Below, piece after piece: positions 487 to 20,569 of a stretch of DNA of 23,996 nucleotides (position 1 is the stretch's first letter; each line of letters starts with the position of its first letter). The stretch spans positions 1 through 23,996 of IMG/VR virus record IMGVR_UViG_3300021962_000646; one strand, 5' to 3'. The position numbers and the translations under genes are program-made. The stretch is from a virus. Under the pieces are notes generated by a model that was not told the origin of the DNA, ran no database searches, and was given only the letters and a program-made list of their open reading frames with translations.

Positions 487-886
487 TCCCGGCGGCACCA
501 TTGGTACTGCCTACCTTCTTGCCGACAAAGAGGGATGTTCTTGGCGGCTAGCCGAACAGGTCAAAGATAGCAACCTATTTAGCTGGCTAGACCATACAGA
601 GAAGCCCGATACTGTGGTCGTGGAAGATTTCATCGCCCGTCCTACACTTACAGATGGACGATGGACCCAGCTTCCTGTAGCTAAGCAGATCGGCGCGATT
701 GAATACTGGGCACACATCAACAAGATCCACTTCGTCCTACAGCAGCCCAGTTGTAAGCCTGTAGGATATGCGAAGGCGGGGCTTGAGTACAAGAAAGGAA
801 AGCAAGGGGTACACATGATGGATGCTATGGCGCACGCCGCGTTCTACGCATCCAAGATTGGCTACCAAACGAGAGAGCGTAACTGA
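467..886 (+). CDS. RuvC-like Holliday junction resolvase/nuclease
   Basis: A 139-residue RNase H-fold nuclease of the RuvC type, probably cutting Holliday junctions or branched DNA before packaging. The N-terminus has the first strand GVDPGG with catalytic D7. The second strand VVVEDF supplies E53. The C-terminal helix HMMDAMAHA supplies D119, with H116 three residues before it, matching the RuvC pattern of one acid per element plus a (H/D)xxD pair. The length is slightly below bacterial RuvC (about 170), as is common in phage versions. A strong aaggagc Shine-Dalgarno site lies six bases before the ATG, which supports this start despite the 20-base overlap with the preceding gene. The stop overlaps the endolysin start (TGATG). 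Confidence 0.85.
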   Translation: MLILGVDPGGTIGTAYLLADKEGCSWRLAEQVKDSNLFSWLDHTEKPDTVVVEDFIARPTLTDGRWTQLPVAKQIGAIEYWAHINKIHFVLQQPSCKPVGYAKAGLEYKKGKQGVHMMDAMAHAAFYASKIGYQTRERN

Positions 887-1686
887 TGGCATTCTACACG
901 AGAGCACAGATCGGCCTAGTTCCACCCAAGAGCACCACGTTTCTGGGCATGGTCGATAACCTATACATTCACCATAGTGGTAGCGGCGGGCCGGGAGCCT
1001 ACAGCGTAGAAGAAGCTATGTCTTATCTCCGTGGCGTGCAGCAGTACCACATGAGCGGGGAGTACGTTGACATTGCTTATAACTACGGGTTTGACCAGCT
1101 CGGAAACATCTATGAACTCCGAGGTTTTGGAGTCATGGGAGGCGCTACTTACGGCCAGAACGACAGCTCATACGCCTTTCTTTGGATTGGCGATAGCAAC
1201 GTTGATACTCCTGCAGATGCTTCTCTGCGGGCGATGGCCGCGCACGCAAGGGCCGGAGTAACTGGCGCCTACTTCTCACCGCATCCGAACTTTCGGGGGC
1301 ATCGAGATGCTGGAGGAACCTCCTGCCCAGGAGATACCCTCTACAATCTAATTCCTGCAATCAAAAACTATTTCAATGGAGGTGGATCCGTGGACGAAGC
1401 AACCGCTCGCCAATGGGTTAAGGAAGATTACAACACGATTCTTGGTCGGGAACCCGATCAGGAAGGCTGGGACTTCTGGACGCAGAAGCTAATGGATGGA
1501 GCACAGCGTAACGATATTCGCTGGATCTTTCTCACAGGTCCCGAGGGGCTTCCGGCACTTAGGAATCGAATCGCCGTACTAGAGAGCAAGCCAGCGGCAG
1601 ATCCGAACCGACCTGAGTCTGGTGCTCCGCAATACACGTTCCAGCAGATCGCCAACGACATGGCACGGCGACTGCTGAACGACTGA
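886..1686 (+). CDS. N-acetylmuramoyl-L-alanine amidase endolysin with DUF4214-like C-terminus
   Basis: A 266-residue lytic enzyme. Residues about 20-165 form an Amidase_2/PGRP zinc amidase, which cuts the bond between N-acetylmuramic acid and L-alanine in peptidoglycan. Visible marks are YIHHSG with zinc ligand H29 or H30, the AYNYGFDQLGNIYELRG strand pair (Y65, Y67), and GHRDAGGTSCPGD giving ligands H139 and C147. After a Gly-rich linker, residues about 175-215 contain LGREPDQEGWDFW, which matches DUF4214, an uncommon module in endolysins that probably serves for wall or surface binding (inferred). A short tail at 225-266 is helical and polar. There is no signal peptide or membrane segment, so export needs a holin. 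The gene ends just before a bidirectional terminator. Confidence 0.9.
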   Translation: MAFYTRAQIGLVPPKSTTFLGMVDNLYIHHSGSGGPGAYSVEEAMSYLRGVQQYHMSGEYVDIAYNYGFDQLGNIYELRGFGVMGGATYGQNDSSYAFLWIGDSNVDTPADASLRAMAAHARAGVTGAYFSPHPNFRGHRDAGGTSCPGDTLYNLIPAIKNYFNGGGSVDEATARQWVKEDYNTILGREPDQEGWDFWTQKLMDGAQRNDIRWIFLTGPEGLPALRNRIAVLESKPAADPNRPESGAPQYTFQQIANDMARRLLND

Positions 1687-1729: not shown

Positions 1730-4700
1730 TTATATCCTACGACCTAGTGGTCGCGCATCAAAAGCTGCAGGAGACGATGGCGTGTACTTCCCACCTTCTT
1801 GCGCTGCCTTCTTTTTCTTACTGTATTCAGTAATAAACTTCTGTAGAGACTTCTTTGTTTCAAGAAGATTTTTGGCGTTAGGATCTTCGTAGACCCAACG
1901 ATTCCTGACCTTCTCCCTAGGCATTTCAGAGAGGATCTTCTCCAACTCTTCCTGCCTACGGATTGCTTCACTTACCTGCTGACCTTCAGTTACGGTCCGA
2001 ATGTCAAGACCTGTAAGGAAGCGGCCAAGTTCTCCACCAGAGAGGGCGCCCTTTAGGAAACCTCCTACACCGGGGTCGGTAGAGGGATCAATACCTCGTC
2101 GCCCCAAGTTGTAGGCTAGGTTAGATTGGGGTAGCTGCTGAGTTAGCCAGCGTCCCCAGCCCTGCTCGCTCAAATCCTGTCCGGTAAAGACAGACTTGCC
2201 CGTAGAGCGCTCAACAAAGTTCTTAATCAGCGGGTTGGACTGACCAGCAATGATGCGAGCCGTTTCCCCAACGCTTGATTGGACAGAGGGAATGTCTCTT
2301 TGGGCCAGATCCTGCACGACCTGAACAGGAGCGTCAATGTTTCGCAAGACGTCTACAGGCAGACCTGCTGTAGACATCATTACATCTTGCCCTGGCTGAA
2401 TCCCGAACGCTCCCCCCACCACAGAGCCTACCGGACCCGCCTTATCAAGCAGTTCTTGCAATCCGCTCTTTTGATTCTGCTTTTGGTACTGAGCTTGTAG
2501 TCTGAATGGCGCCATTTCGGTCATCCATTGCGGCACTAGTGGGTCCTCTTCGGGATCCGCCATGTCTGCGCCCAGCAGATTAGTGATTAGGTTCTGACCC
2601 TTCGGATAAAGGGCCATGAATCCAGGGTTTGTAAAGAGCAACGAAATTTGCTGGGGCAGAGCCTGTCGCAAATAGCTATAGAAGGGAATGACTCGCGACA
2701 TTACCTTCTTCTCAAAGACAGTCTTGTTGCCGTAGTCAAGGTTTACCCGACGTACAGCGTCACCTGCACCCGTAGCGGTCTTTACAATGTCGTCGTCCCA
2801 ACCACCAAGCTTATTTCGTTTAATCTCTTTAATGTTCTTTGGAAGGTCCTTGTCTAGGCGATCCATAAAGTGAGCTAGACGAACGAAATCTTCCTGCTTG
2901 TCTGCAAGATCTCCGGCAAATCCCTTCATCTTGCCGTAGGGCTTGCCAAGCTTTTGACCAATAGCCGCCCTCTTGCCAGACTCTGCAGTCAGAAGCTTGT
3001 CAAGACCAACAATATCACGGTATAGCAGGGAGGAGATCTGCCCAGCTTTGCCGCCCATTGTGGTGTAGAGTTCCCAGATATCCCTAGTAGAGATCTTTCG
3101 ATTCCCTATCTGAATCGTCCTACCCTTAAAGTCCGTAAGGCCCTTAAGATCAGCCTCTACAAACTTATCAATATCCTCGATAACCTTACGAGCCTGCGAA
3201 TACCTCTCGGGATTATATACTCCGTCAGAAGCATTCATAACAATGTCGCTGATAAGGTTACGAATACGAGTCTGAGGCGTTAGAGTTGCAAGAAAGCGCC
3301 ATTCATTGAGCGCTTTATCCGCGGTCCGCATGACCTTGCTGGCTACAGTAGTATCGTCAAAGATGCCCATCGTAGATTCAAGAGCCTTCATCTGCTCTAC
3401 AGGCATGTAGAGGTCCTCGAATTGATCTTTGAAGTTCTTAAACATCGGGTGTCGAAGAACATCATTGACCGGCAAGTAGTTGTACTTCTCAAGGAAGTCC
3501 GCATTCCGCTTAGTCTTGCGCACTCCAAACGTAGCTAGGGCATCTTGATAAACGCGAGCCTTAGCCACAGCTTGATGGTGCTGGGCTAGACGAATCGGAA
3601 GCCACTCTGCCCAGTCTACAATAGGATCTAGTCCTAGACGCTCTGCTTCTGCTAGGGTTAGATCCCCTTCACGCTTGTACTGGAAGGGCTGCTTTGATCG
3701 ACCCGTAGTCTTGACGGGGAATTTTTCTACACCGTCAATAACTACAGCGCCCTTACGATTCCTAATGACTCGGTGCGCGTAGCTTTCGACTTTCTGGTCA
3801 GGACCGAGAATACCGAGATTTCGTTCCGTTCTATAGATCTGGTCTAGAAACTCTCTAAAAACGTTTTGCATATCTGCTGCGTTGTCGATACCGTACTCGT
3901 TATCGGCAGCTTTGCTAGAAGGCAGCGCGGAAGCTACAGGGCTGTCCGCTTCGTCTAGCGCAAACGTGATGGCTCGCCGCTGTTCAGGGGTAAACAGCGA
4001 TGCCCACCGGTTAATCTTCATTTGGTGGATACGCATTCCCTCGGTAGCGCGCATCTCAGCGCGACGAGTGACGTCCGCCAAGCCTCCAGGCATTTCTGCC
4101 TGTCGGCTAAATGCCTTAGATAGGGTGCCGTATTCGCCTTCATCATTCGTAAAGAGGTTCTTTGCGCCCTTAGACAGCTTGTCGTAGACCTTCGTACTCT
4201 TTAGAATCGGCTTCCCACCAAAGCTTAGGTAGGCATAGCCTGCACTATCTGCGGCTAGGTCGTCTGCAATGCCCTTTACTAGTTCTTCGTATCCAGAGGT
4301 CTTCCCTTGAAACTTCTGATATTGGGCAGGAATAGCCCTACCCGCAGCTTTAGCTTCATAAAGCTCGTCTGCCTTCCTAGCAGCTTGCGCTTGAAGGGCT
4401 GCCCTGGGGGTCGTACCCTTCTTAAGCCCTACACTGGTGTAGGTAAGAGGATCAGCAAACACGTCGAAGCCAAAGCCCAGCGTGCTGCTCAACCAATCGG
4501 GAGTATCCTCACCGAACGCTGTTTCTACAACGTCCTTACCTGAGGCATAAGTATCGCCTTTAAGCCCGGCTCCGATACCGGAGACGAAACCGCCCAGGCC
4601 CTCACCTTCTAGGGCCCGGACGGTTCCTTCCGCTACACCTCTAGACGGCCTAGAAAGGAAATCGAACAGCTCAGGCAGAATACTGCGACTACGCTGCAGC

Positions 4701-4735
4701 TCCTCCAGTTCGCTTTCGGTGTAGTACTTTACCAT
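1730..4735 (-). CDS. Large internal virion / DNA ejection-like protein (1001 aa)
   Basis: The last gene of the late operon, with no catalytic motif that I can see. The N-terminus is charged (TESELEELQRSRSILPELF), then Gly-rich and amphipathic, with a DVFADPLTY motif (DPLTY at 95-99) that also occurs in the 1214-residue neighbour. A YAHRVIRN segment lies near 317-324. Residues about 655-705 carry DYGNKTVFEKKVM followed by IPFYSYLRQALPQQ, which resembles from memory a module of very large phage polyvalent proteins. The C-terminus is lysine-rich (YSKKKKAAQ). Size, position after the tail genes and amphipathic character fit a protein packed in the capsid and ejected with the DNA. That role is inferred. 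The start overlaps the preceding stop (TAATG). Confidence 0.7.
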   Translation of the reverse strand: MVKYYTESELEELQRSRSILPELFDFLSRPSRGVAEGTVRALEGEGLGGFVSGIGAGLKGDTYASGKDVVETAFGEDTPDWLSSTLGFGFDVFADPLTYTSVGLKKGTTPRAALQAQAARKADELYEAKAAGRAIPAQYQKFQGKTSGYEELVKGIADDLAADSAGYAYLSFGGKPILKSTKVYDKLSKGAKNLFTNDEGEYGTLSKAFSRQAEMPGGLADVTRRAEMRATEGMRIHQMKINRWASLFTPEQRRAITFALDEADSPVASALPSSKAADNEYGIDNAADMQNVFREFLDQIYRTERNLGILGPDQKVESYAHRVIRNRKGAVVIDGVEKFPVKTTGRSKQPFQYKREGDLTLAEAERLGLDPIVDWAEWLPIRLAQHHQAVAKARVYQDALATFGVRKTKRNADFLEKYNYLPVNDVLRHPMFKNFKDQFEDLYMPVEQMKALESTMGIFDDTTVASKVMRTADKALNEWRFLATLTPQTRIRNLISDIVMNASDGVYNPERYSQARKVIEDIDKFVEADLKGLTDFKGRTIQIGNRKISTRDIWELYTTMGGKAGQISSLLYRDIVGLDKLLTAESGKRAAIGQKLGKPYGKMKGFAGDLADKQEDFVRLAHFMDRLDKDLPKNIKEIKRNKLGGWDDDIVKTATGAGDAVRRVNLDYGNKTVFEKKVMSRVIPFYSYLRQALPQQISLLFTNPGFMALYPKGQNLITNLLGADMADPEEDPLVPQWMTEMAPFRLQAQYQKQNQKSGLQELLDKAGPVGSVVGGAFGIQPGQDVMMSTAGLPVDVLRNIDAPVQVVQDLAQRDIPSVQSSVGETARIIAGQSNPLIKNFVERSTGKSVFTGQDLSEQGWGRWLTQQLPQSNLAYNLGRRGIDPSTDPGVGGFLKGALSGGELGRFLTGLDIRTVTEGQQVSEAIRRQEELEKILSEMPREKVRNRWVYEDPNAKNLLETKKSLQKFITEYSKKKKAAQEGGKYTPSSPAAFDARPLGRRI

Positions 4736-7700
4736 TACTTGTTAGCCTCTCTCGCTCGTTGAGCTTTGATTCTTTCCCATTCGTCAGGAGTGTAAGACTT
4801 CCTAGTTACCTTGTCATAAATCTTTTTGTTGCTCTTAGCCTTATAACCGGTTCTCTTAATGGTCTTACCCTCGGCCTCGGCCTTAGCTTCTCGCTCTTTA
4901 CGGTCCTTGGCTTTTTCTTTTGCAAGCCGTTCGTTTGTGTAATCATTCCTACGCTTGACCATGAGCTTCTCAAGATCAAGGGGGTCCATCCATCTGCCCG
5001 TAAATGGATCTTGGGCTTTCGGAGTAAGCGTCTCACGTAGAAGCATCTCTACCTCGCTTTGGTCTCTAGTACCAAATCCAAGTCGCTTAGCAACCTCTTT
5101 GTTTTGGACAGACCCAAACCAGGGACGGCCCTTAGGATCTGCAACATCTTCCTTAAAGAGCATCCGCATCATGTAGCGCGCATCGCTAAGCCTAGGCTCA
5201 CGCCCTAGCTTTTTGGCTGCCTCTTGATACCAGGGTGAAAGCTCATAATTCTTAAGGGGATCAGGCCCTTGATTAAACACCTCACCAGTACCAATATTCC
5301 GTCGGACCCCAGCTGTTGCCTGAGATTCACGGAACTCGTTAATCTCTCTCGGACTACGGAAGTAGCTGTCTAGGATCTCACCAGTTAGCTCATCAACTTC
5401 GTCTAGTACCTCTGCGTCGGGATCCAGGGTACGACCAACGTCGCTGGCTTCTCCACCAGCCAACTGATTCATGACCCTACTATAGCCTTGTCCCTCCGTT
5501 AGCTCGGCTCCAGTACGATAGAAGTCTGGAAGCTCCTCTTCTACAAGGGCAGAAGTAGATGCACCGGACGGGCGCTTAATAGTACGGTTTGCAAGGTTCT
5601 TCAAGTACGCATCGTACTCTTCGGGATTGCTGGCTCGGCTAATAACTCTAGCATCATCAATCCACTCAACCTCACCTTTGCTATTGACGCGGGTAGGCTG
5701 TTCTCCCTTGATAGTCGGGAAAATCTCAGGATACTTCTTTCGAGCTTGCCAGCCTGGAATGTTTCCAGTCACGCGCTCCGTGCCTACGTAGGGAACGGCC
5801 CCCCTGACTGCATTAAGCTGTCCCGGCTTCTTATGCTTTTCAACCCAGTCTTTCCAGCCAGGAGTAAGCTCCATACCGGGAACGGTAGGATTCTTACCCT
5901 GCCTACGAAGATTTGAAAGATGGCGAGCTTCTCGCTGAACTAGCTCGATCTTGCCCGCGTCCCTAAGGTTTAGGTTCTTTAGAGATGCATTTTCTGGAAT
6001 CTCATCAATAAGCCGCATTAGCTGCTCGGTGGGCATGCTCTGTAGATACAGGGCATCCTCTTCGCTAATTCGATAAACGTTTAGCTGTTCTGGAAGTCGC
6101 CGTAGGTAGTCTCCGGTTAGCTCTACAGGCTCTCCGGTACGGGCTACCTGTATCTGTCCAAGATTAGGCTGAGTAACCGCAGGCACCCGTCCTTCTTGCC
6201 CCAGAACCCTGTTATACAGTTCATACGGATCTGCACCATAAGGAGCAGGAGTTTCTGGATACTTGAAGATTGGACGTTGTGTAGGCGTCCGTCCAGTTCT
6301 TGGAGATAGCGTTTCTGCTACGAGGTTAGTAAAATCTTCTCGCGTGTCAGGGATCTCAAATCCATAATCTACGTCATCAGGATTGACGTTGGAGAAGTCA
6401 TCCAGTACCCGCTCCTCTGCATTACGTGCAGCAATCTCTTGAAGTTCCTCTAGAGAGGTGAACTCCCATCCTTCTCCAAGATCCCCACGAACCTGAATAT
6501 TAGACAGGTCGTTGGGATCTGCAAGAATCATGTCTTCTAGCGTCAGGTCTTGCCTGGCCCTAGCAAGAGAATTGACAAGCTCAGAACGAGTCTTTGCAAA
6601 CTCTTCCTGAACTACTCGCGGTACGTCTGCTTCCTCAATCTCAAAATTATTTACCCTAGCTCTTGTTGTAGCACGGGCACGGGTCCATGCTTCATCGGTA
6701 AGGGCTTGTAGTTCGGGATCGTCTACTTTTAGAGCCTTAGGCAGCTTACCTAGGGCAGTAACCTTAGTTAGCTCAGGAACTGCCGGAAGTGCTTCTTCTA
6801 CACGGGCCGTGGGAAGGATCACTTCTTCTACAGGATTAGGAGTAATCTCCTCCAGTAGAGATTCAGGCGCAGGCTCCTCAGTTGTAGGCTTCTTTGTGCG
6901 AGGCTTGCGAGTGCGCTTTGCCTTCTGCTTCGCCGCTACACCCAGCCGTGCAGCTACTTCTGGGTCCGCCAAAGCTACGCCTAGCTTATTGGCAACGTCT
7001 GGATTACGCATCGCCACACCTAGAAGAATCTCCTCCATAGAAGCGGGCATATCAGAACGCTGTTGAGCAATAGCTCGGCCCGGCGCTCGTGTAGGCCCTG
7101 CAAGAAGTTCGCCTAGGCTCTGTCCTAGTTGTTGGACGGGAGTAGGAGCGGGCCCCATTGGACGTGCGAGACCAGGCCCCGGCATTAGTGCGCGAGGCGG
7201 AACTACAGGTCCCATTGGTCGTGCAGGTCCCGGTCCAGGCATTAGCTCCCGAAGTCCAGGCATTAGCTCCGGCGGCAAAGTGGGGGGAAACTCCGTGCGC
7301 TGCGCATCGGTAAGCCCAGTGATTCCCCCACGAGGACGAGAAAACCCGTAAAGCTTTCCAATAAAATCATCAAGCCCAGCAACTGCGCGGGATTTGTTGC
7401 GCAGCGATCGGATACCCCCTAGACCTAGGGTCATTCCTAGACCTAGGTCTAGATTTCCTGCGCTAGCAATATTGCTGAGGATTGCGTTCTCTAGAGTTCG
7501 AGGAGAAGTTACGGCTCGACCGGCCTTCCCCGCTACCTTGGCAATCTTTCCCGAATCTTCGGCCGTTCCTGCAGTTTTAATCGCCTTGCCCGCTTTGGCG
7601 GCTCCAGGGATCTTGCTACCATACTTAGCAGCTTTTGCGCCGATTCCTGCACCGCCCAAATAGGTTAGCGGATCGGATGCGATATCTCCTACGATTGTTG

Positions 7701-8379
7701 TAGGAACAGTAAAGAACTTGCTCTTAGTCCACTCTGCGTCGGGAGCTGCAATCTGGGACAGGCTTACAAGGCTTCCGCCACCGCCCTCTGGCTGCTTTCC
7801 GGTAGCCGCATCCAGAATGTTCTGGGCTACGCGCTTCATATTGCGCGTATTATCTTCGGTGGCTTCAGTGGGATCTGCAAAATTGGGCGTTTGCATGAGC
7901 CCTAACCCTGTAGGGTCAAAGAGTCCGAAACCCGAGCCGGTATTGTACTTATCCCTAAACTCATTACGGATACGAGAGAATCCCTTATCCGTATCGGGGT
8001 CCATGCTGCCAGCCTTGATCTTATCAACGGCTGTAGCAAGAGTTAGTAGGTCGTCGAGTTTCTCCCGGACAACCATCCCACCTAGACCAGAAGTAGCCCG
8101 AAAGACTTTCTGGGGAACAGAGTAAATCGCCTTTAGAGGGCTTAGAGGATTGAACCCTCCGTCATCTTCCGTGTCCTCTTCAAAGTCAACGGGGAGCGTA
8201 CGACTACTAAGCTTCCGTCGGTAGTTGTATTCTTCTGGCGTTAGGACTCGGGCTCCTACACGCTGAGATACCTGTGCATTAAAGTAATCAATCGGGCTCA
8301 CTTTATCTTGCTCTAGAGCCTTCTTATAAATCTTTTCTAGATCCTCGTCAGAGAGGAGGACTTTATCTTGTTTTGCCAT
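4735..8379 (-). CDS. Very large internal virion-like protein (1214 aa)
   Basis: The largest protein of the window and of unknown biochemical function. Residues 1-200 are charged. Residues 225-290 are Ala/Gly/Lys-rich and amphipathic and hold GDIASDPLTY (DPLTY at 236-240), shared with the 1001-residue neighbour. Residues about 365-415 are a Pro-rich repeat with two LMPGPG.ARPMGP units. Residues 459-482 contain two NPDVANKLGVAL-like units in tandem. A basic TKKP-type stretch follows near 485-500. The middle is acidic and probably helical, and the last 60 residues are strongly basic. No transglycosylase or peptidase motif is obvious. A gggagg site five bases before the ATG sets the start. An ejection or internal virion role is inferred from size, composition and position. 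Confidence 0.68.
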   Translation of the reverse strand: MAKQDKVLLSDEDLEKIYKKALEQDKVSPIDYFNAQVSQRVGARVLTPEEYNYRRKLSSRTLPVDFEEDTEDDGGFNPLSPLKAIYSVPQKVFRATSGLGGMVVREKLDDLLTLATAVDKIKAGSMDPDTDKGFSRIRNEFRDKYNTGSGFGLFDPTGLGLMQTPNFADPTEATEDNTRNMKRVAQNILDAATGKQPEGGGGSLVSLSQIAAPDAEWTKSKFFTVPTTIVGDIASDPLTYLGGAGIGAKAAKYGSKIPGAAKAGKAIKTAGTAEDSGKIAKVAGKAGRAVTSPRTLENAILSNIASAGNLDLGLGMTLGLGGIRSLRNKSRAVAGLDDFIGKLYGFSRPRGGITGLTDAQRTEFPPTLPPELMPGLRELMPGPGPARPMGPVVPPRALMPGPGLARPMGPAPTPVQQLGQSLGELLAGPTRAPGRAIAQQRSDMPASMEEILLGVAMRNPDVANKLGVALADPEVAARLGVAAKQKAKRTRKPRTKKPTTEEPAPESLLEEITPNPVEEVILPTARVEEALPAVPELTKVTALGKLPKALKVDDPELQALTDEAWTRARATTRARVNNFEIEEADVPRVVQEEFAKTRSELVNSLARARQDLTLEDMILADPNDLSNIQVRGDLGEGWEFTSLEELQEIAARNAEERVLDDFSNVNPDDVDYGFEIPDTREDFTNLVAETLSPRTGRTPTQRPIFKYPETPAPYGADPYELYNRVLGQEGRVPAVTQPNLGQIQVARTGEPVELTGDYLRRLPEQLNVYRISEEDALYLQSMPTEQLMRLIDEIPENASLKNLNLRDAGKIELVQREARHLSNLRRQGKNPTVPGMELTPGWKDWVEKHKKPGQLNAVRGAVPYVGTERVTGNIPGWQARKKYPEIFPTIKGEQPTRVNSKGEVEWIDDARVISRASNPEEYDAYLKNLANRTIKRPSGASTSALVEEELPDFYRTGAELTEGQGYSRVMNQLAGGEASDVGRTLDPDAEVLDEVDELTGEILDSYFRSPREINEFRESQATAGVRRNIGTGEVFNQGPDPLKNYELSPWYQEAAKKLGREPRLSDARYMMRMLFKEDVADPKGRPWFGSVQNKEVAKRLGFGTRDQSEVEMLLRETLTPKAQDPFTGRWMDPLDLEKLMVKRRNDYTNERLAKEKAKDRKEREAKAEAEGKTIKRTGYKAKSNKKIYDKVTRKSYTPDEWERIKAQRAREANK
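7151..7272 (-). repeat. In-frame Pro/Gly/Met-rich tandem repeat in the 1214-aa gene
   Basis: Two units of about 45 bases (7151-7194 and 7207-7251) plus a partial third (7253-7272) encode LMPGPGLARPMGP-like copies. Bases differ between units more than residues do, so the repeat is partly degraded but kept in frame. It probably forms an extended linker between the Ala/Gly-rich N-terminal part and the acidic middle of the protein. Confidence 0.75.
7418..7452. repeat. CTAG-rich direct repeat and 16-bp palindrome inside the 1214-aa gene
   Basis: The 12-mer CCTAGACCTAGG occurs at 7418-7429 and again at 7436-7447. The second copy extends into CTAGACCTAGGTCTAG (7437-7452), a perfect 16-bp palindrome. 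On the coding strand it encodes LDLGLGMTLGLG using CTA for every leucine, so it could be a simple result of codon choice. It could also be a recombination hot spot or a protein-binding site. Confidence 0.7.
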
Positions 8380-8388
8380 CGTGCCTCC

Positions 8389-9582
8389 CTAGCTTCCTAC
8401 GAGATCTATAAGTGTCTGAATGTCTTTGTCTGATAGGTAACGATTTCCAAAGCCGCTCCATCCAGCTCCGCCATTAGGAGTGGCCTCCGCGTTCCATGCT
8501 GGAATAGTGAAGCGGCCGCTTGCGGGATCATAGTCAGGAGAGGTTAGAAGTTCATTTTGTAGCTTCCAACTACTAAACGTTGGATTGCCGGAGGCATCTT
8601 TACCAGTGCCTAGATTTAGAATAAAATCTAGGCTATCTCCAGCAACCTTATTGTTGCGAGCCCATTCAAAAAGGGATTCGGGCTGACCTAGGCTGTCCTG
8701 CATCTCAGCTAGCTTGGCTCTCTGCAGAGCTAGTTCAAGCTGTCGCTCTGGGCTTGCCATTCGCTCAGCGTACTGCTGCCTATCAAACTCAAACTGTTCA
8801 CGAGCAAGAGCCGCAGATGCCGCACGGGCAGCCGCAGCCGCCGCAGCCTCTTGTTCAGAAAGATTGAATTGAGCGGCCTGAACTAGCTGATTCCAGTCAC
8901 GTTCATCAAGCTTATATCCATAATCGGTAGCAAATGCGCCACGCTCAGTAAAGATATCAAGCAAACGATTCCGAAGCTCTCGCTCACGGTCGGTAGCATC
9001 AAAACGAGCCTGCGCCAGAGAGCGACCTAGTTCCGACTCAAAGTCGGAGATTTCTCCAGCACGCTCGCGCTCTCCCATAGAAATGCCTTCACGCATTAGG
9101 GCATCCTGCTGGGCGCCCCATGTGGAGAGGTTTCCTACAGCGCCAGCCTCGCTCATTCCCATCTGCTCTAGCATTCGCTGGGCGGCTTGTTCCATTGGAG
9201 TAGCGGCAGCAACCATTGCTTGCTGTCCCGCCCCGATGTTTCCGCCTAGCTCAGCAAGACGCTGAGTAGCAAGCTGTCGAGCAGTCTCACTTACGTTACG
9301 AGTTCCCGCATAGACGTTTTGGAGATTAACTACTTCATCCCCAAGCCGCTTTTCGGTGGCGGCTCGGTTTTGCTCCATTCGCTCGCCAGCGAGTTTGTAA
9401 GCGTCTTCAATGGCGCCCTTGCCTCGCGTGCGATAAAATTCGAGAGCGTCAAGATTTGCTTGAAGATCTCCAGGAATAAGGGCAAGATCGCCTTCAACGC
9501 GCTGAATGGGGGCTTTGTAACGCGTGTCTACAGCGGCGTTTACTTGACCTTGCCTATCATTCTGTGGTGGTGTAATAGGCAT
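8389..9582 (-). CDS. Coiled-coil virion / ejection-like protein (397 aa)
   Basis: A 397-residue, mostly helical protein with no membrane segment. Residues about 60-120 and 195-300 are rich in Ala, Glu, Gln and Arg and should form coiled coils. One stretch (QEAAAAAAARAASAALARE) is almost pure alanine. The last 70 residues turn polar and aromatic (NPTFSSWKLQNELL, GGAGWSGFGNRYLS). I see no enzymatic motif. It lies between two other large proteins of similar composition, and its start overlaps the previous stop (TAATG) with a ggag site seven bases upstream. The set recalls podovirus internal core or ejection proteins in position and character, not in sequence. A tail or fibre-stalk role is an alternative. 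Confidence 0.65.
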   Translation of the reverse strand: MPITPPQNDRQGQVNAAVDTRYKAPIQRVEGDLALIPGDLQANLDALEFYRTRGKGAIEDAYKLAGERMEQNRAATEKRLGDEVVNLQNVYAGTRNVSETARQLATQRLAELGGNIGAGQQAMVAAATPMEQAAQRMLEQMGMSEAGAVGNLSTWGAQQDALMREGISMGERERAGEISDFESELGRSLAQARFDATDRERELRNRLLDIFTERGAFATDYGYKLDERDWNQLVQAAQFNLSEQEAAAAAAARAASAALAREQFEFDRQQYAERMASPERQLELALQRAKLAEMQDSLGQPESLFEWARNNKVAGDSLDFILNLGTGKDASGNPTFSSWKLQNELLTSPDYDPASGRFTIPAWNAEATPNGGAGWSGFGNRYLSDKDIQTLIDLVGS

Positions 9583-10991
9583 TAAATGACTCCAAATTCT
9601 AGCCAGGAGTAAGGATTGGCAATAAGATTACGAATCTGCGTTACGGTCAAGCCTCTACCTCCAGCGCTTGTTAGCGCTGAGGTTACCGCACTTAGTGCGG
9701 TTGGATTGGATGCAAGCGTGGGCGATACGTTGTTTAGCACCCACTGTTGTACAGAATTTACATTGCTACCCTGAGCTAGCGATGGTAGAGCAATGGTGGT
9801 CTTATCGGGGTTAGGAACACTGTTCCGAGTTATATCAAAACCATCCCCTCCCCCGAACTCGCGAGGATCGTACGTTCCTCGTAGCCCAGGATTAATGGTA
9901 AAGTTCCGAACCGCGTCAGTAAGTGTAGCAATCCGAGCGAGATCGTCTCTACGTTGCTGCTCTAGAAGATCTAGACGCTTTGCTTCTGCATCAAGACGAG
10001 CACGCTCCATCGCCTGCTGCTGCTCATACGACCGCTGGCCCTCAATAAGGCCCATGTATTCCGAACCGTAGTTCCGCTGGGCTGTAGAGAACTGGTCGAT
10101 CAGGTCCGCCAAGCTGCGGTTCGCTGTCCGATTTAGATCAAAGAGGTAGTCCTGATAGTTCTTCTGTACATCAGCGGAACTCTTTAGGTTGATTCCAGAA
10201 CGGCTAAGACCCCGAGCAGACATTTGCTGCTGTAGTTGCTGTGCAGCCTTACGAAGGCTCTCTTCTGAACGACCTAGAGTAGTCTGATAGTCTTCAAGCG
10301 TTCGATTCCTGTTGGTCTGTAGCTGCTTCTGCAGATCCGTGAGACCAGTTCGGAGTTGGACATCCCTCCGTGCAAACTCTCCAGAAAGGCCTGGGACTTG
10401 TTGTCCACCAGTTGCCTTATTCTGCAGATTTGTAATGTCTATAGTCGTATCGAGCGCAGAGGTATCTACACCGGGGCCTTGACTCTGGTCAAGGGTTGTG
10501 TAGGTTTTCCTGAAAAGATCTTCGTAAAGCTCAGGAAATTCGTTGGGATTCTGTTTGAGATACTCGGAGATTGCCTGCATCTCTCCAGTAGCGGGTCGCG
10601 CTTCTCCTTTGCCTCCCACGGGGCCAAAGAGCTTGTCGCGAACTGTGGCGTACTGCTCCATGATCTTGCTCTGTGCAGGAGTACGAACCGCTTGCTGTAG
10701 CTGCGCCTGAGCAATCTGCTGCAAACCGGTAGTAGGAGCGCTGTAAGAAACTGGGGCGCTCCCTGGCAACGCTTGAGAGGTTTGAGGAGCTGGAATAGAA
10801 GGGGTAGGCGGAGGAGCCTGCCCCTGCTGCGCCATATTAAACCCCTGTTGGCGCTCCATGTCTTCTTCTGTTGGCTGTGAAGGAAGTCCGCCGTATGCGG
10901 GCGCTCCAGCAGTAAGCTGGGCCTGGAGCTGCTTCTTCTTTTCTTCTTCTTGTCGCTGTAGCTCACTTAGAGCTGCATCTGCTAGGGCCAC
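9582..10991 (-). CDS. Gln/Pro-rich coiled-coil virion-like protein (469 aa)
   Basis: Residues 1-30 are a charged helix (LQRQEEEKKKQLQAQ). Residues 45-95 are Pro/Gln/Ala-rich and disordered. Residues about 205-345 are a long coiled coil rich in Gln, Arg and Asp, with AAQQLQQQMSARGLSRSGIN in the middle. Residues 350-469 are a globular polar end finishing with PYSWLEFGVI. There is no catalytic motif or membrane helix. The start is GTG: an aaggaggg site lies five bases upstream and the codon overlaps the previous stop (TAGTG). It probably acts with the three large proteins after it as an internal virion or ejection component, which is inferred from its place at the end of the late operon. Confidence 0.65.
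   Translation of the reverse strand: MALADAALSELQRQEEEKKKQLQAQLTAGAPAYGGLPSQPTEEDMERQQGFNMAQQGQAPPPTPSIPAPQTSQALPGSAPVSYSAPTTGLQQIAQAQLQQAVRTPAQSKIMEQYATVRDKLFGPVGGKGEARPATGEMQAISEYLKQNPNEFPELYEDLFRKTYTTLDQSQGPGVDTSALDTTIDITNLQNKATGGQQVPGLSGEFARRDVQLRTGLTDLQKQLQTNRNRTLEDYQTTLGRSEESLRKAAQQLQQQMSARGLSRSGINLKSSADVQKNYQDYLFDLNRTANRSLADLIDQFSTAQRNYGSEYMGLIEGQRSYEQQQAMERARLDAEAKRLDLLEQQRRDDLARIATLTDAVRNFTINPGLRGTYDPREFGGGDGFDITRNSVPNPDKTTIALPSLAQGSNVNSVQQWVLNNVSPTLASNPTALSAVTSALTSAGGRGLTVTQIRNLIANPYSWLEFGVI
9662..9701. other. Two tandem short hairpins near the 3' end of the 469-aa gene
   Basis: CAGCGCT-TGTT-AGCGCTG (9662-9679) and ACCGCAC-TTA-GTGCGGT (9685-9701) are each perfect 7-bp stems, five bases apart. 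No T-run follows on either strand. They lie in codons for a Ser/Ala/Thr-rich segment. They might slow transcription or protect mRNA, or be chance. Confidence 0.5.
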
Positions 10992-12136: not shown

Positions 12137-12715
12137 CTAATACTTAATCATGATATTAGCTGCGGCCCAGGGCTGCATGTTGTTGTGAGCCTGTCCGCCA
12201 CCAGCATAGTTGATGTAAGTGGGGTCGTTCTGCAGAGCGTTGTTGTATCCAGCCGGATATTCAACAACTTTATTCTGCACGCCTAATCCCGTAGTGCCTC
12301 CCCACGCCACATTGTGATTGTGGCTAGGCATTTCGTCAATGGTCAGGGTGTGAGTTTCTGAACCGCCAGTAGTTGCAAGAACTCTGTTCGTCAGACCACT
12401 TCCAGTACCTGCTCCTACAAGAACTCGTCCAGCCCAGTTTGGTAGCGTGATTGTTTCGCTTGCTACCCAGGCTGCGGGGACTACCGAAGCTAGCTCTTTG
12501 TAGACGTTTGCAGATACGGATTGTCCATTCATTAGTAGCCAGCCCTCTGGGGCTGTTGCTCTAATGGTATACTGCAAAGTTCCTACAGGTGCTGATTGAC
12601 TCTCGCTGTTGTCTGAGTTTAGTGCTCTGGCAATTGCCTGAAAGCTCTCGTTTAGGTAACTGAGCATTCCCTCTTCGTACCGAGGTACCATAAGAGGGGT
12701 GAATCTCTGCGCCAT
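12137..12715 (-). CDS. Tail collar domain protein (192 aa)
   Basis: A probable receptor-binding or tail-tip fibre protein. Residues 12-33 form an amphipathic helix ([19 protein letters not shown]) likely to trimerise. Residues 43-110 match the phage Tail Collar domain: [23 protein letters not shown], then [15 protein letters not shown] Gly/Thr-rich part includes [17 protein letters not shown] with an HNH motif at 132-134, as in metal-binding fibre tips. The end [18 protein letters not shown] is the family's closing signature. It is a paralogue of the collagen-like fibre, which ends [17 protein letters not shown]. The start overlaps the tail protein's stop (TAATG), and the gene has no collagen part. 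Confidence 0.82.
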
Positions 12716-14625
12716 TACGAGACACTTCCAGTCATAGAGCGTCCAACAAGTCCGTCGGGAGCCATTACAAATCCCAGACTGTTGATCTCAAAGTTATCGT
12801 CAGACGTGCCATAAACTTTAACACCGAGCCATCTACATCGGCCTGGCCCCTTAAACCTCCACATCGCCCGGTATTCATCTGCCTGTGCATCTTGTGTGGC
12901 GCTGTATGGGGTTTTGCCGTCTCTCTTATAGGTCAGAGTTAGAGTACGATTACCAGCGGAATTGGACGGGTCGGTGTCTACCATGACCGTATGTACCCGC
13001 TTCCATTCGTAGGGTTCACCAAAGTCAATTAGCTTGGTTTCTACCTGAAATGGAATGTTTTTACCGTTAACAGCTCCGTTAACGGCATTTCCGTCAGATG
13101 TGTGATACTGGTTCAGCTCCCAGAAATACGCCTTATACGTATCCTGTCCGTTCTGGTCCTTCGACGGTGTATACTTGTAGTCAAAATATACAAGAGCAGA
13201 CATGGCTGCGGAGGAGACGCTTGCTCCACCCCCGCCAATTGCCATTGGGTAACTATTGCCAGATTCTCCACTACCTGTGGTGGCGGTGTTGCTGTAGATA
13301 TTAATCATTGGGCCAGCGTAGGACGGCATGTCCCATAGGGTCCACGTCTGAGTTTTCCAACCATATACAAAAGCTAGTTTGTCTGCAGTGTAATTTTTGC
13401 GAACAATGTACCAGTCTTTCCATCTAACGGCGGCCGCCCTATTGCACGTATCAGGAGTAAACGCGATGTTTACTCCGATCATTGCGGGATCTACAGGATT
13501 GCTGAGATGCTCAAACGTGGTGCCGTCTGTGCGATATACGCCATCGCCAGCTAGAAAGTACAGGAAGTTCTGAATGACAAACGGCGTATCGCGACCAGTA
13601 CATCCTACAGTAGCGTGTGCTTTACGCAGCGACCACCCTGCTGGAGCGCCATCAGTGTAGAGCACCCATGTGCTAAAACGCTTAAAAAGAATTAATTGAT
13701 CGCCAAAGCTTGCTGCGGAAACTAGAAAATCGCCATTCCCAGGGTCTACATCAACATAGTTTAGCGGGTCGTATGCCTGAGAAGTATCAAAGTTGGCATC
13801 AGCCCATAGTTCCGTAAAATACAATCGAGACGTATACGGTCCCGGACTAGCTGATGTATCCTTGTTGTTGAAGTAAAAGATCCTATCTTTGTGTACGATA
13901 GAGAATGTAGCGCTAGCGTTGAAACTCTCTAGGTTTCCGCGAGCCCCGTACACGCCCATTGTGGTATCTGTAGAGGTGGTACCTGCGGTACCGCTTAGGG
14001 TAAGAACACCAGTACCTGCATTAATGTTAGTGATCGTACGATTCTGCAACCCTGCTGCAATTGCTCCAGTGGAGGTTACCCGAATATCTACCGCTTGACC
14101 TAGAGTAAAGACAGAAGTGTTGCCTACGCCTACAGTAACCGTGTTCCCTGCAGAAGTAGTAGCTGTTAGGGGCTTAATAAGGTTAAATCCTACGTCTACA
14201 AAAGTACCAGTAGTAGCTCCAGTACTAGTATAAACCGTGGGTCTACCCGTGCTGGAGAAAATGTACGCTTTATTTTCAAACTGTACGGCTGTTTCAATAT
14301 CAACTACAGCAGAAGAAGGCCCCAGGGTTAGAATTTCTGTGCCAGGATCAGGATAGTACCCGTAAACATTCGTACCGTTTGAGACGAAAACCATTGTCGA
14401 AGCGGTTGCGGAGTTCGCGTATCCTAGAATAATAAAACTTTTTCCAGAAATACTAGAAATTCCCTGATGCGCGCTTTTGATATTAATGCCGGGGCGCTTT
14501 TTAATCGTGCCCTGATCCCCAATTACTACGTTTTGGGCATCAACTAGTTGGCCGTCGGCAAGCATCGACTTCTGTTGTAGATTGATGCCCTTAAAACCGG
14601 TTAGAACAGCAGTCTCTGCTTTCAC
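12715..14625 (-). CDS. Large tail / DNA-stabilisation-like protein (636 aa)
   Basis: The N-terminus ([20 protein letters not shown], then [20 protein letters not shown]) has the pattern seen in P22 gp10-like DNA-stabilisation proteins and podovirus tail-nozzle proteins: FKGGxN, an LxxGQ.VDAQNV strand and a kRPG turn. The rest is beta-rich, with repeated short strands suggesting a propeller ([46 protein letters not shown]). Residues about 158-230 look like an inserted beta-domain that is also present in the major capsid protein. It follows the adaptor gene, as expected for a head-closure or tail-tube component. The start is GTG, overlapping the adaptor stop (GTGA), with an unusually complete Shine-Dalgarno site. 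Confidence 0.78.
13936..14154 (-). other. Beta-rich insertion in the 636-aa tail protein, shared with the capsid protein
   Basis: Residues about 158-230 carry NTVTVG, GQAVDI, STGA, RTIT.IN and TGV.T in the same order and at almost the same spacing as residues 150-220 of the major capsid protein. Roughly 25-30 of 70 positions look identical by eye. Bases are also alike in short runs, for example cctacagt followed by a near-match to the capsid gene. Confidence 0.75.
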
Positions 14626-15281
14626 TCGTAGATCACCTCCGGCTCAAGATCGGGCTGCTTGACTGTGGCAAAGTCGTACATTACAGGGTTCTGGCGATGG
14701 TAGTTGATGTTAGCGACTTTACGGCCATAATCTGCAACAGCAGCTCCCGCCATTGTCGTATCCCCTACCTTTAGATAAAGAAGGTATAGAGCGTAGCGTA
14801 TTAGGGCGTCCTCTACCTGACGATCAAAGCCTGTGGCGTTACCTAGCGTTACTAAGTCTGCCGGAACGACTACACCTTCTACAGTCTGCCAGTAGGGCTG
14901 TGAGATTACACGGGGGTAAAGCTGAACTGTTCCCTGCGAAAGCATCCAGTAGCCTAGAGGCTGAGCTGCATCGTAGCTATCTCGATAGTTGGCTGGATCA
15001 AGTGCTGGAATTCGTACCGCTGTTCCTGTACCGGGAGTAGAGGATCCAATGTAGATGCGGTACGAAGAGACTCGCAGCATGTCTACATCTAGACTAATAG
15101 TTCCGGTAGCAGAAGTAGTACCGCCAGTAGACAGAGTAGAAAAGAACCCATCAGTATCTTGAGCAAACTGTCGGATAGCTTCATTGACATAATCTACAAC
15201 CTCAGCAACAGTAGCTACAGCAGCATCCTCGTCACCGAACAACCGCTGTACCCGAGTTACGACCTGCTGTAGCGTTGACAT
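14622..15281 (-). CDS. Head-tail adaptor/connector protein (219 aa)
   Basis: An adaptor that probably docks under the portal and links head to tail. Residues 1-45 are helical, with VVDYVNEAIRQFAQDTDGFF near 28-47, a pattern common in phage adaptor (gp6 or P22 gp4-like) proteins. A beta segment follows (GTISLDVDMLRVSSYRIYIG), then a helix-rich part DALIRYALYLLYLKVGDTTM near 160-180 and an extended polar tail. There is no enzymatic motif. It lies directly before the 636-residue tail protein and shares a GTGA overlap with it, the usual adaptor-then-tail order. A gagg site seven bases before the ATG supports the start. Family assignment is by pattern and context, not strong sequence identity. Confidence 0.75.
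   Translation of the reverse strand: MSTLQQVVTRVQRLFGDEDAAVATVAEVVDYVNEAIRQFAQDTDGFFSTLSTGGTTSATGTISLDVDMLRVSSYRIYIGSSTPGTGTAVRIPALDPANYRDSYDAAQPLGYWMLSQGTVQLYPRVISQPYWQTVEGVVVPADLVTLGNATGFDRQVEDALIRYALYLLYLKVGDTTMAGAAVADYGRKVANINYHRQNPVMYDFATVKQPDLEPEVIYE
14631..14640 (-). promoter_or_regulatory. Extended Shine-Dalgarno site for the 636-aa tail gene
   Basis: The coding strand reads GGAGGTGATC, a ten-base match to the anti-Shine-Dalgarno tail of 16S rRNA, five bases before the GTG start. It lies inside the 3' end of the adaptor gene. It supports GTG as the true start and predicts strong translation independent of coupling. Confidence 0.85.
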
Positions 15282-15283
15282 AC

Positions 15284-15493
15284 TCAGACCTCAGGGTTCT
15301 CGCGACGACCGATTACAGGGGTGATCGGGTCAGACTTCTTGGCGCCAACGGTGTTGCCTGCCACATACCCAAGAACCGTCATAAGAGCGCCAGAAACGGC
15401 TTCTGGGGGTAGCACATCGGTAATACCAAGAACCACAACTGCAACCAAACTTAGACCAAGAAGGATAGCCTTCTGCCAGTTTACTACTGCCAC
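15284..15493 (-). CDS. Holin-like small membrane protein (69 aa)
   Basis: Residues 9-27 (AILLGLSLVAVVVLGITDV) are a clear membrane helix. Residues 32-51 (AVSGALMTVLGYVAGNTVGA) are a second, weaker one, separated by a Pro-Pro turn. The C-terminus is charged (AKKSDPITPVIGRRENPEV). Two membrane helices, a short length and a basic end fit a class II-type holin that would release the amidase to the cell wall. The assignment rests on topology, not on a named family. A short membrane protein of another role is possible. The start is GTG with a ggag site seven bases upstream, and it overlaps the glycosyltransferase end by ten bases. Confidence 0.6.
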   Translation of the reverse strand: MAVVNWQKAILLGLSLVAVVVLGITDVLPPEAVSGALMTVLGYVAGNTVGAKKSDPITPVIGRRENPEV

Positions 15494-16266
15494 TTTCTTT
15501 CTCCAAACTTTTCTGTGATTCGCTCATCGTATTCGCTCGCAATCTCTGCGACTAGAGTCTGAATCAGACCGTTTCTTGTTCGCTGGGCTGTTGCTGGCCC
15601 AATGTGCTGCTTATACAGCATCTGTGGAATATAATGATACTTTGTTTCTAGAACCGTTCGCACTACAAGCTCGTAGTCATCGGCTACAGGTAGCTGAGGA
15701 TCGTGCCCGTCTAGCTTACGGTAGACATTCGCTCGCCATGCTCTTACATGGTTTGGAGCAGATACAATGTGTCGGATCGTTGTAGCGTTGATAGGCGGTG
15801 CCTTCATTGCCCATACGTTGTGTTCTTCACACCAGTAATGCGATCCATATCCGAAAGCCCACCCATCCGGATAGATTCCCGATTCTCCTGAAAGCAGAAT
15901 CTCACACCAATCTGAGTAGACAAAGCCTACAGTCTTGTCAGAAAACGCGATATCCAGAACTGATAAAGCGTCGGGGGTAAGCTCGTCATCGTGATCCAGT
16001 TCTACTAGAATGTCGCCATCGGCAACCATGAAGGCGTTACGCTTGACTTCTCCGATCTTACCAGAATGAATGAGAGAACGGTGGGCAGACAGCTTGTATC
16101 GCTCATCTGAGGCGAAGCCGTACAGTTGTCGCCACACCTGTTCCCCTTCTGAATCATCCCACACAACCCACTCCCAGTCTGTGAAAGTCTGGGCTTTGAG
16201 TGAAGCCCATGTACGAGCCAGAACTTCGGGAGGCGTATTGTAAGTTGGAGTGATGACAGAAATCAT
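15484..16266 (-). CDS. Family 2 (GT-A) glycosyltransferase (260 aa)
   Basis: A cytoplasmic GT-A enzyme that moves a sugar from a nucleotide sugar to an acceptor. The N-terminus ISVITPTYNTP is the GT2 first strand. WDDSEG at 36-41 fits the nucleotide-binding acids. DGDILVELDHDDEL contains the metal-binding DHD at 91-93. VADDYEL at 194-200 gives the likely base (D196/D197). The length is typical for a single-domain GT2, with no membrane helix. It starts in an ATGA overlap with the fibre chaperone-like gene and ends overlapping the holin-like gene, so it is co-translated with the fibre. The acceptor is unknown. A virion fibre or a host surface sugar are both plausible. Confidence 0.88.
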   Translation of the reverse strand: MISVITPTYNTPPEVLARTWASLKAQTFTDWEWVVWDDSEGEQVWRQLYGFASDERYKLSAHRSLIHSGKIGEVKRNAFMVADGDILVELDHDDELTPDALSVLDIAFSDKTVGFVYSDWCEILLSGESGIYPDGWAFGYGSHYWCEEHNVWAMKAPPINATTIRHIVSAPNHVRAWRANVYRKLDGHDPQLPVADDYELVVRTVLETKYHYIPQMLYKQHIGPATAQRTRNGLIQTLVAEIASEYDERITEKFGERKWQ

Positions 16267-20415: not shown

Positions 20416-20569
20416 ATTGGATCTTAGACCTCGTTTTGGTATTGGCTATCCTGATCGCTTTTGCCTCGTCCCCAGTTTCCTTAAGGATTGCGTTAGCGAT
20501 TGATGCCCAACGGGATGGATTCTGTACGTCTTTTTTAAAACGTTTTGCGTCGCCAGAATTCCACGGCAT
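20405..20569 (-). CDS. Small conserved protein (54 aa), MPW...W..IAN...GDE..AI type
   Basis: A short gene filling the apparent gap between portal and scaffold. The frame runs from ATG at 20569 to TGA at 20405-20407. The protein begins MPWNSGDAKRFKKDVQNPSR and continues WASIANAILKETGDEAKAIR. This pattern (MPW..DAKR, W..IAN, L...GDE..AIR.AN) matches from memory a widespread small family of phage and bacterial proteins of unknown function. It is basic and helical. The start overlaps the portal stop (TAATG), with aaggagg twelve bases upstream. The end overlaps the scaffold start. Both overlaps and the family-like pattern make it very likely a real gene. Confidence 0.8.
   Translation of the reverse strand: MPWNSGDAKRFKKDVQNPSRWASIANAILKETGDEAKAIRIANTKTRSKIQYGK

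Follow-up and report, generated by a model that had tools for sequence, protein, structure and literature searches.

A candidate ejection protein of virus record IMGVR_UViG_3300021962_000646, with a region apparently akin to a cyanophage pre-ejectosome protein and, more distantly, to LPD38 proteins

Results

The 1001-aa gene and its conserved signatures

The window analysed in this study is the whole 23,996-base stretch of IMG/VR record IMGVR_UViG_3300021962_000646 (positions 1 to 23,996), itself a virus record, and the gene of interest encodes a protein of 1001 amino acids (aa). Its open reading frame (ORF) is intact and contains no internal stop. The initial annotation had pointed to a conserved-looking module at 2600-2790, at residues about 655-705 of this protein, and had likened it to a segment of the very large polyvalent proteins of phages and conjugative elements. 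The module is real and its exact span is 2618-2737 on the minus strand; the start in residues had been placed about a dozen too early, since residue 667 is the first of DYGNKTV; IPFYSY follows from 683 and TNPGF from 702. The features of the gene are as follows.

1730..4735, minus strand: 1001-aa gene, final gene of the leftward late cluster, proposed to encode an ejection (pre-ejectosome) protein
4418..4678, minus strand: N-terminal LSRP ... GFxxDVxxDPLTY module, residues 20-106
2141..3340, minus strand: extended conserved region of about 400 aa, residues 466-865 (domain model 195-880)
3221..3286, minus strand: T-x-x-P-x-x-[HR]-x-R-N-x-x-x-D ... G-V signature, residues 484-505
2867..2890, minus strand: D-F-x-R-x-A-H-F signature, residues 616-623, within a long helix
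2618..2737, minus strand: motif D-Y-G-x-x-T-x-F-E ... I-P-F-Y-S-Y-x-R-x-x-x-P ... N-P, residues 667-706
2168..2239, minus strand: N-P-x-x-x-x-x-x-E-x-x-x-G-x-x-x-F-T-G signature, residues 833-856

No known domain was found in the 1001-aa protein by the family-library searches, so the combination of several domains with disparate activities that marks polyvalent proteins in the sense of Iyer et al. (2017) was not seen, and a transglycosylase domain was likewise not found in the Pfam and NCBIfam searches. Weak candidates from these searches, such as MbnB_TglH_ChrH (E 0.3) and methionine synthase (E 0.017), scored far under the cut-offs and were discarded.

A family of relatives conserved outside the search pattern

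The tblastn search with the 1001-aa protein against 50,697 phage records returned four records at E <= 1e-3, namely podovirus ctEqG8, Microbacterium phage Shocker (two records) and Cellulosimicrobium phage DS1, with E-values from 8e-14 to 5e-8. The proteins of ctEqG8, Shocker (gp37) and DS1 carry the same motif as the window protein, with G replacing R in Shocker, and those of Shocker and DS1 are longer (1743 and 1783 aa); because all three are annotated as hypothetical, they add no functional clue. Two genes of ctEqG8, the best match (MW202795.1), are annotated as WhiB transcription factors. WhiB is a mark of actinobacteria, and these genes therefore hint at an actinobacterial host. Paenibacillus phage API480 also has the motif; its E-value was 8 in the database search and 5e-5 in a five-protein comparison, and it was recovered at 97.9% (E 5.5e-13) by a family profile built without it.

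These five sequences (the window protein, ctEqG8, Shocker, DS1 and API480) formed alignment A1. The scan of viral contigs found no relatives with the single 1001-aa protein and 289 with alignment A1, so that an alignment query was required. Family analyses rest on 80 kept relatives, from which further alignments were built with the window protein: A2 (36 of the 80 loci), A3 (33) and A4 (43 loci, not counting L029, which has an unknown residue, or L042, L043 and L052, whose ends are short). A scan of genomes gave 17 relatives, mostly on metagenome-assembled contigs, together with Paenibacillus and Cohnella isolates.

The pattern [DN]..E..PFY..R..P was present in 75 of the 76 full-length ORFs among the kept relatives, some of which are identical. 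Because the scan demanded [IM]PFY[STD][WY]x[RG][KQM], that is IPFY and its neighbours, these columns were partly selected, and the columns outside the scan pattern are therefore the fair test of conservation. De-replication of 72 distinct sequences left a non-redundant set of 62, the window protein among them, in which E675, R619 and G505 were invariant outside the pattern; this bears out the conserved look noted in the initial annotation. N493, P694 and P704 were kept in 61 of the 62, P735 in 60, A657 in 59 and D667 in 50, and position 663, R in the window protein, was K in 58. The family consensus is approximately V-[RK]-K-x-x-x-D-[YG]-x-x-L-T-x-F-E-x-x-x-M-R-R-x-I-P-F-Y-[ST]-W-x-R-K-x-x-P-L-x-x-E. 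On these alignments, conservation of the motif exceeds chance. At the family level, the region of about 400 residues is marked by T-x-x-P-x-x-H-x-R-N-x-x-G-D ... G-V (484-505), R-x-A-H-F (619-623), the motif, P735 and N-P ... E ... F-T-G (834-852). The N-terminal DP[LTV]T[YF] element was found in the N half of 42 of the 76 full-length ORFs (0 of 1520 shuffles).

A clear enzymatic domain was found in only one of 37 family members. This member (L044:2233-5739) ends in a transglycosylase SLT domain (1.1e-11), in other words the region is fused there to a wall-cutting enzyme. According to the excerpt of the review consulted (PMC8954989), some ejection proteins carry a transglycosylase domain.

Relation to the pre-ejectosome protein gp26 of cyanophage A-4L

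The profile of the conserved region, when compared with PDB sequences, aligned weakly on the motif with 9k3a_A, a 1114-aa 'Tail protein' (E 0.13; RPFANWSMQSTP...P.K). All 61 printed residues of this chain are identical (100%) to those of Anabaena phage A-4L, whose gp26 is also 1114 aa long. The PDB entry bears the title 'Cyanophage A4 pre-ejectosome with C1 symmetry'. This structure was reportedly described by Hou et al. in PNAS in 2025, a study that appears to match the entry and that we know from citations in two papers. In several other cyanophage records the gp26 homologue carries a fibre label, as against the placement of A-4L gp26 in a pre-ejectosome in the PDB.

The hhalign comparison between the family and the A-4L gp26 group (four cyanophage homologues) reached 99.0% with an E-value, which like all hhalign E-values here is that of a single comparison, of 3.9e-18 over 404 columns; the reversed control gave 0.1%, and full-length alignment gave 99.1% (E 1.2e-18). 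In a HMMER search of 177,635 PDB sequences with the whole-protein family profile, Gp29 of the E1004 core came first (1.1e-4) and A-4L second (0.0025), followed from 0.0078 on by other rows, mostly designed or helical proteins. The Gp29 match sits on the N-terminal DPLTY segment. A-4L gp26 shares with the window protein the motif (F..DD ... RPFANWS..STP ... P.K), the C-terminal F.G signature and a similar length (1114 and 1001 aa), and two giant genes adjoin in each genome, gp27 (1717 aa) then gp26 in A-4L, and the 1214-aa gene then the 1001-aa gene in the window. On the other hand, identity is 13%, PFA or PFS stands for PFY, and A-4L infects cyanobacteria.

Relation to giant phage proteins with an LPD38 region

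LPD38 (PF18857) was named in 2017, when its function was elusive, as stated in the excerpt of PMC5512222 available. Profile analysis supported homology between the conserved region of the window protein and the C-terminal part of giant phage proteins in which LPD38 lies. Seven diverse LPD38 proteins were chosen as seeds from 136 phage records with a match, among the matches listed and without the Stx-converting phages or a large number of nearly identical Vibrio records, and PF18857 was confirmed in all seven. A deep profile of 127 sequences combined these seeds, which the PF18857 scan covered, with 120 of the 160 loci fetched from among the matches listed; of the rest, eight were removed because of short flanks, their length or unknown residues, and 32 because they were redundant.

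The family (residues about 445-856) matched the seven proteins at 97.7% (E 1.6e-12) over 302 collinear columns. Reversed profiles gave 0.2% and 0.4%, and the best of 20 block-shuffled profiles gave 27.6% (E 6.5e-4). Three family subsets gave 97.9, 97.8 and 93.9% against the seven proteins and 97.9, 97.4 and 85.2% against the 127-sequence profile, to which the whole family matched at 97.3% (crop) and 98.2% (full length). The N part of the family alone (383-640) reached 95.5%, the C part alone (710-930) 72.8% (E 3.2e-5, 32 columns), and the LPD38-side segment upstream of the Pfam domain alone 95.1%. The A-4L group also matched the 127-sequence profile (96.4%, E 1.3e-9, 471 columns), completing the triangle of family, LPD38 proteins and A-4L.

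The seven seeds align in the order T..P.F..RN..RD, E.A.R...Y, AA, NF.R.G, PF.N..QG and P..E...N...G.PI. Signature 484-505 has its counterpart in T..NPxFxxRNxxRD and signature 616-623 in ExAxRxxxY, both upstream of LPD38, and signature 833-856 in P..E...N...F.G.PI inside the Pfam domain. The family motif aligns with [ND]F-x-R-x-G ... PFxNxxxQG, tens of residues ahead of the Pfam LPD38 start; in Pondi the counterpart lies at residues 62-86 of the scanned piece and LPD38 begins at 123. A regular expression for the LPD38-side motif was found in 62 of the 127 sequences. The window family thus has in common with LPD38 proteins (JC1 gp69, Pondi, Vibrio phage 1.205.O, Bacillus phage Pascal gp19) the elements T..P..xRN..xD, R...[YF], AA, [ND]F/DY, PF and P..E...F.G, as well as a giant late gene. 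LPD38 proteins differ in having PFxNxxxQG where the window family has PFYxWxRK; they may reach a much greater size (JC1 gp69, 4515 aa) and include enzymatic domains, and many are more hydrophobic past the motif.

LPD38 in the formal Pfam sense is absent from the family. PF18857 (gathering cut-off 27 bits) had no match in the window, none in the hmmscan of two fragments of the 1001-aa protein at E up to 10, and none in 37 family members. Of 14 further records it matched the positive control JC1 alone (122 bits), and neither the 12 family records nor A-4L. This is explained in part by the Pfam boundary, because the counterpart of the motif precedes it. A significant match to a Pfam LPD family, which the initial annotation had named as its supporting test, was accordingly not obtained: the plain Pfam search gave no LPD family at all, and the stretch 640-710 alone gave a non-significant 0.7% against the LPD38 proteins. 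The motif by itself therefore proves nothing, and the signal is that of the surrounding 400-residue region. Judged from these alignments, the motif forms the central signature of a region of about 400 residues common to A-4L gp26 and, more distantly, to LPD38 proteins.

According to the excerpt of PMC9144972 available, gp69 of Burkholderia phage JC1 has 4515 aa with LPD38 at 4195-4401, and was found in purified virions by mass spectrometry. Upstream of LPD38 it has TGYNPAFILRNAARD and ENALRLSLY, which resemble the family signatures. Gp69 is annotated as a DarB-like antirestriction protein, and its presence in the virion, like the homology to the LPD38 region, would suit a polyvalent effector proper, a multi-domain LPD38-type protein whose chief task is action inside the host, for example in antirestriction, and not the building of a path for the DNA. 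We consider this unlikely for the window protein, in which no known domain was found and formal LPD38 is absent, with an enzymatic domain in 1 of 37 members; the conserved part is the C-terminal region and not the effector domains, and the closest match of solved structure is a pre-ejectosome chain.

The resemblance to polyvalent proteins held for phages, by the LPD38 region, and failed for conjugative elements. By tblastn the family was found in one of 72,556 plasmid records, weakly (E 1e-4): a 40.9-kb Paenibacillus replicon (NZ_CP054610.1) with terL, a family member and lysis genes, which is apparently a phage-plasmid. The LPD38 region was found in three of the 72,556 plasmids, all typed as non-mobilizable. 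At the sensitivity of tblastn, occurrence in conjugative elements, a trait that not every domain of polyvalent proteins has, is thus not supported.

Gene neighbourhood

The 1001-aa gene closes a cluster of leftward late genes that ends in four long genes of 469, 397, 1214 and 1001 aa. No transfer RNA genes were found in the window, in which the other annotated features are the following.

23096-23995, leftward late genes: terminase large subunit, cut by the window end
20569-22482, leftward late genes: portal
18431-19636, leftward late genes: major capsid protein
16521-17606, minus strand: collar-domain protein with a long collagen-like GPQG repeat region (Pfam Collagen 3.7e-24, Collar 9.1e-25)
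15484-16266, minus strand: family 2 glycosyltransferase amid structural genes (Pfam 4e-13)
14622-15281, leftward late genes: SU10-type adaptor
12715-14625, leftward late genes: virion structural protein
12137-12715, minus strand: second phage tail collar domain protein
8389..10991, minus strand: 469-aa and 397-aa genes, which might encode smaller ejection proteins
4735..8379, minus strand: 1214-aa gene adjoining the 1001-aa gene, proposed to encode a second ejected protein
886-1686, plus strand, opposite to the late genes: Amidase_2 then DUF4214, next gene after the 1001-aa gene

The 1214-aa protein has a Pro-rich middle and no tblastn match at E <= 1 in the 50,697 phage records. It carries a DPLTY module at about residues 157-262 (window 7594-7911), which aligned with that of the 1001-aa protein at 37.9 bits (best of 200 shuffles 9.0; reversed -4.3). 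Among 19 loci compared, a faint relative of the 397-aa protein lies upstream of the family gene in one (L009) and of the 469-aa protein in another (L007). Holin or lysin genes follow the family gene in Shocker, DS1, API480 and the Paenibacillus phage-plasmid, and lysis genes follow the LPD38 gene in Pascal and, after two small opposite-strand genes, in JC1.

These neighbours bear on whether the 1001-aa protein could belong to a long-tailed phage, as its tail-length tape measure or as a minor tail protein. In 38 Gordonia records, all annotated as tape measure, residues 666-769 were matched by tblastn at E 0.06-0.4; a 'tail tube protein' is annotated upstream in the Shocker record, and some structural matches (below) are to Myoviridae or Siphoviridae by record name. 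In the Gordonia stretch, however, PF and R are retained without the D667, E675, Y686 and P694 positions, and the family profile found no match in the Gordonia protein (1.1%, 13 columns elsewhere), for which reasons these hits were rejected. The window neighbours look podovirus-like: they comprise collar-domain proteins, an SU10-type adaptor (phage SU10 has a short tail) and a relative of the 'phage stabilization protein' of ctEqG8. As for the relatives, ctEqG8 goes under the label Podoviridae, and API480 bears a P-type phage name. A long-tailed origin is therefore highly improbable in our judgement.

Structure models and the relation to T7 gp16

The AlphaFold2 model from the full alignment had a predicted local distance difference test score (pLDDT) of 70.6 and a predicted template modelling score (pTM) of 0.72, and that of residues 195-880 had 75.1 and 0.78. 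The motif lies between long helices (589-634, 648-664) and the helical C-terminal part of the model, where it might, as a guess from the model, be a hinge or an oligomer contact. Against BFVD the full model gave 187 matches, 45 of them at E <= 1e-3, which include Shocker, Arthrobacter phage GurgleFerb and the A-4L tail protein (3.5e-6); 12 of the 45 are named 'Large polyvalent protein associated domain-containing', with the domain number not stated. The domain model gave 22 matches at E <= 1e-3 (A-4L 5.2e-6). The template modelling score (TM-score) of A-4L was 0.44 (full model) and 0.41 (domain) of the query.

In VIA-align, four of the five best rows for the full model were phage core or pre-ejectosome chains, and the first three were 9vvp_W (Z 6.2, root-mean-square deviation (rmsd) 6.7, 233 aligned), 7eyb_I (Z 6.1, rmsd 3.6, 144 aligned) and 9jyy_I (Z 6.0, rmsd 5.3, 183 aligned). 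The best rows are thus T7 gp16 (core chains 7eyb_I and 9jyy_I) and E1004 core Gp29 (9vvp), the latter with a DPLTY motif as in the window protein. Taken with a collinear C-terminal LEQMP ... TGL stretch and a comparable place in gene order (T7 gene 16 comes after genes 14-15), they could make the 1001-aa protein a strict orthologue of T7 gp16. We regard this as doubtful. By VIA-align's own note, Z under 13 is common among helical proteins, and the structural match covers mainly model residues 208-615, ahead of the motif, and was not reproduced with the domain model. The profiles were weak as well, at 15.7% (E 0.0017, C-terminal 77 columns) for the family and 0.1% for LPD38, that is, no match, and T7 gp16 was therefore rejected as a formal family. 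The N-terminal transglycosylase of the T7 gp16 type is lacking in the window protein; it is not universal, being absent in P22 and Sf6 as stated in the review excerpt (PMC8954989). Kinship of the 1001-aa protein with T7 gp16 is thus suggested but unproven.

Discussion

Based on its family, its final position among the late genes and its match to A-4L gp26, the 1001-aa protein is probably an ejection (pre-ejectosome) protein of a short-tailed phage, with the LPD38 region as its distant cousin. We lean, with less assurance, towards the wider view that the LPD38 region, the window family and A-4L gp26 are one superfamily whose common region is a packaging and ejection module of the podovirus core.

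Several results weigh against these conclusions. The 1001-aa protein gave nothing significant in Pfam, NCBIfam or PHROGs, and the hhalign E-values stand for single comparisons. Besides the failure of the motif stretch on its own, the match restricted to the Pfam LPD38 core dropped to 72.4% (E 3.3e-5, 33 columns). The PDB search with the conserved region had one other row, the small unrelated helical BGL15, at E 0.15, close behind A-4L, and the best single stretch of A-4L in the HMMER search had an independent E-value of 0.074. The role of the A4 chain was taken from PDB titles and citations only, and GenBank labels A-4L gp26 (L111:5835-9179) as 'tail fiber protein; host specificity'. As to structure, Foldseek against the PDB gave no match at E <= 0.001 and listed mainly transporters; TM-scores in the best 50 BFVD rows were at most 0.45 of the query (full model) and 0.53 (domain). 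In VIA-align 9k3a_A was fifth (Z 4.4, rmsd 6.8, 186 aligned), and the rows of the domain model held neither T7 gp16 nor A-4L chains; they included two rows for terpene synthases and, at Z 2.2, chain 7k5c_A of the T7 periplasmic tunnel. The weak T7 gp16 profiles given above point the same way. Gene order is variable: two more structural genes lie past gp26 in A-4L, further same-strand genes follow the LPD38 gene in Ruegeria phage 45A6, and no lysis gene is annotated after the family gene in ctEqG8. Hydropathy gave no classical membrane helix, as none of 85 family entries (duplicates included) had a 19-residue window with a Kyte-Doolittle value of at least 1.6 (maxima after PFY: median 0.98, highest 1.56), in contrast to 32 of 118 LPD38-side sequences after the motif; the C-termini of five T7-group proteins gave 0.92-1.66 by the same measure. 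Membrane insertion is therefore uncertain.

The empty family libraries and the low structural scores would also fit a protein specific to its phage family and unlinked to anything characterised, whose matches to LPD38 and A-4L were artefacts of helical composition. Such an artefact has very little probability in our view: the reversed and block-shuffled controls failed to match, the family, LPD38 proteins and A-4L agree three ways with motifs collinear over 300-400 columns, the same groups top the BFVD list, and of two other long phage proteins used for comparison, T7 gp16 matched only weakly and the Gordonia tape measure not at all.

If the 1001-aa protein is an ejection protein, its action may be pictured by analogy with the podophage ejection proteins, as outlined in the review excerpt (PMC8954989), and with the pre-ejectosome named in the A4 entry title. 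This mostly helical protein would be packaged in the virion, stored within the internal core (pre-ejectosome) above the portal. At infection it would leave through the portal and tail, with or before the DNA, then refold, and the expelled protein would help to build a path for the DNA across the cell envelope. LPD38 proteins may be packaged and ejected by means of the same region, which would bring the effector domains fused to it into the host.

The match to a pre-ejectosome protein of solved structure is a stronger result than the polyvalent link, and it would give both the family and the LPD38 region a testable function. For LPD38 this would be a concrete job, and the tie to the pre-ejectosome would also explain the position of polyvalent proteins among the late genes. 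No paper joining polyvalent or LPD38 proteins with phage ejection was found in a literature search whose coverage left out most subscription journals. If the superfamily is true, the 'polyvalent' effector domains would be cargo fused to an ejection protein, and core-type ejection proteins would exist in phages that infect Gram-positive bacteria (Microbacterium, Cellulosimicrobium, Paenibacillus, Bacillus). The phi29-like podophages of Gram-positive hosts lack ejected core proteins, as stated in the excerpt of the review (PMC8954989), and the Gram-positive relatives reported here bear on whether phages of such hosts need them. The motif may serve as a search handle for ejection proteins overlooked by Pfam, NCBIfam and PHROGs.

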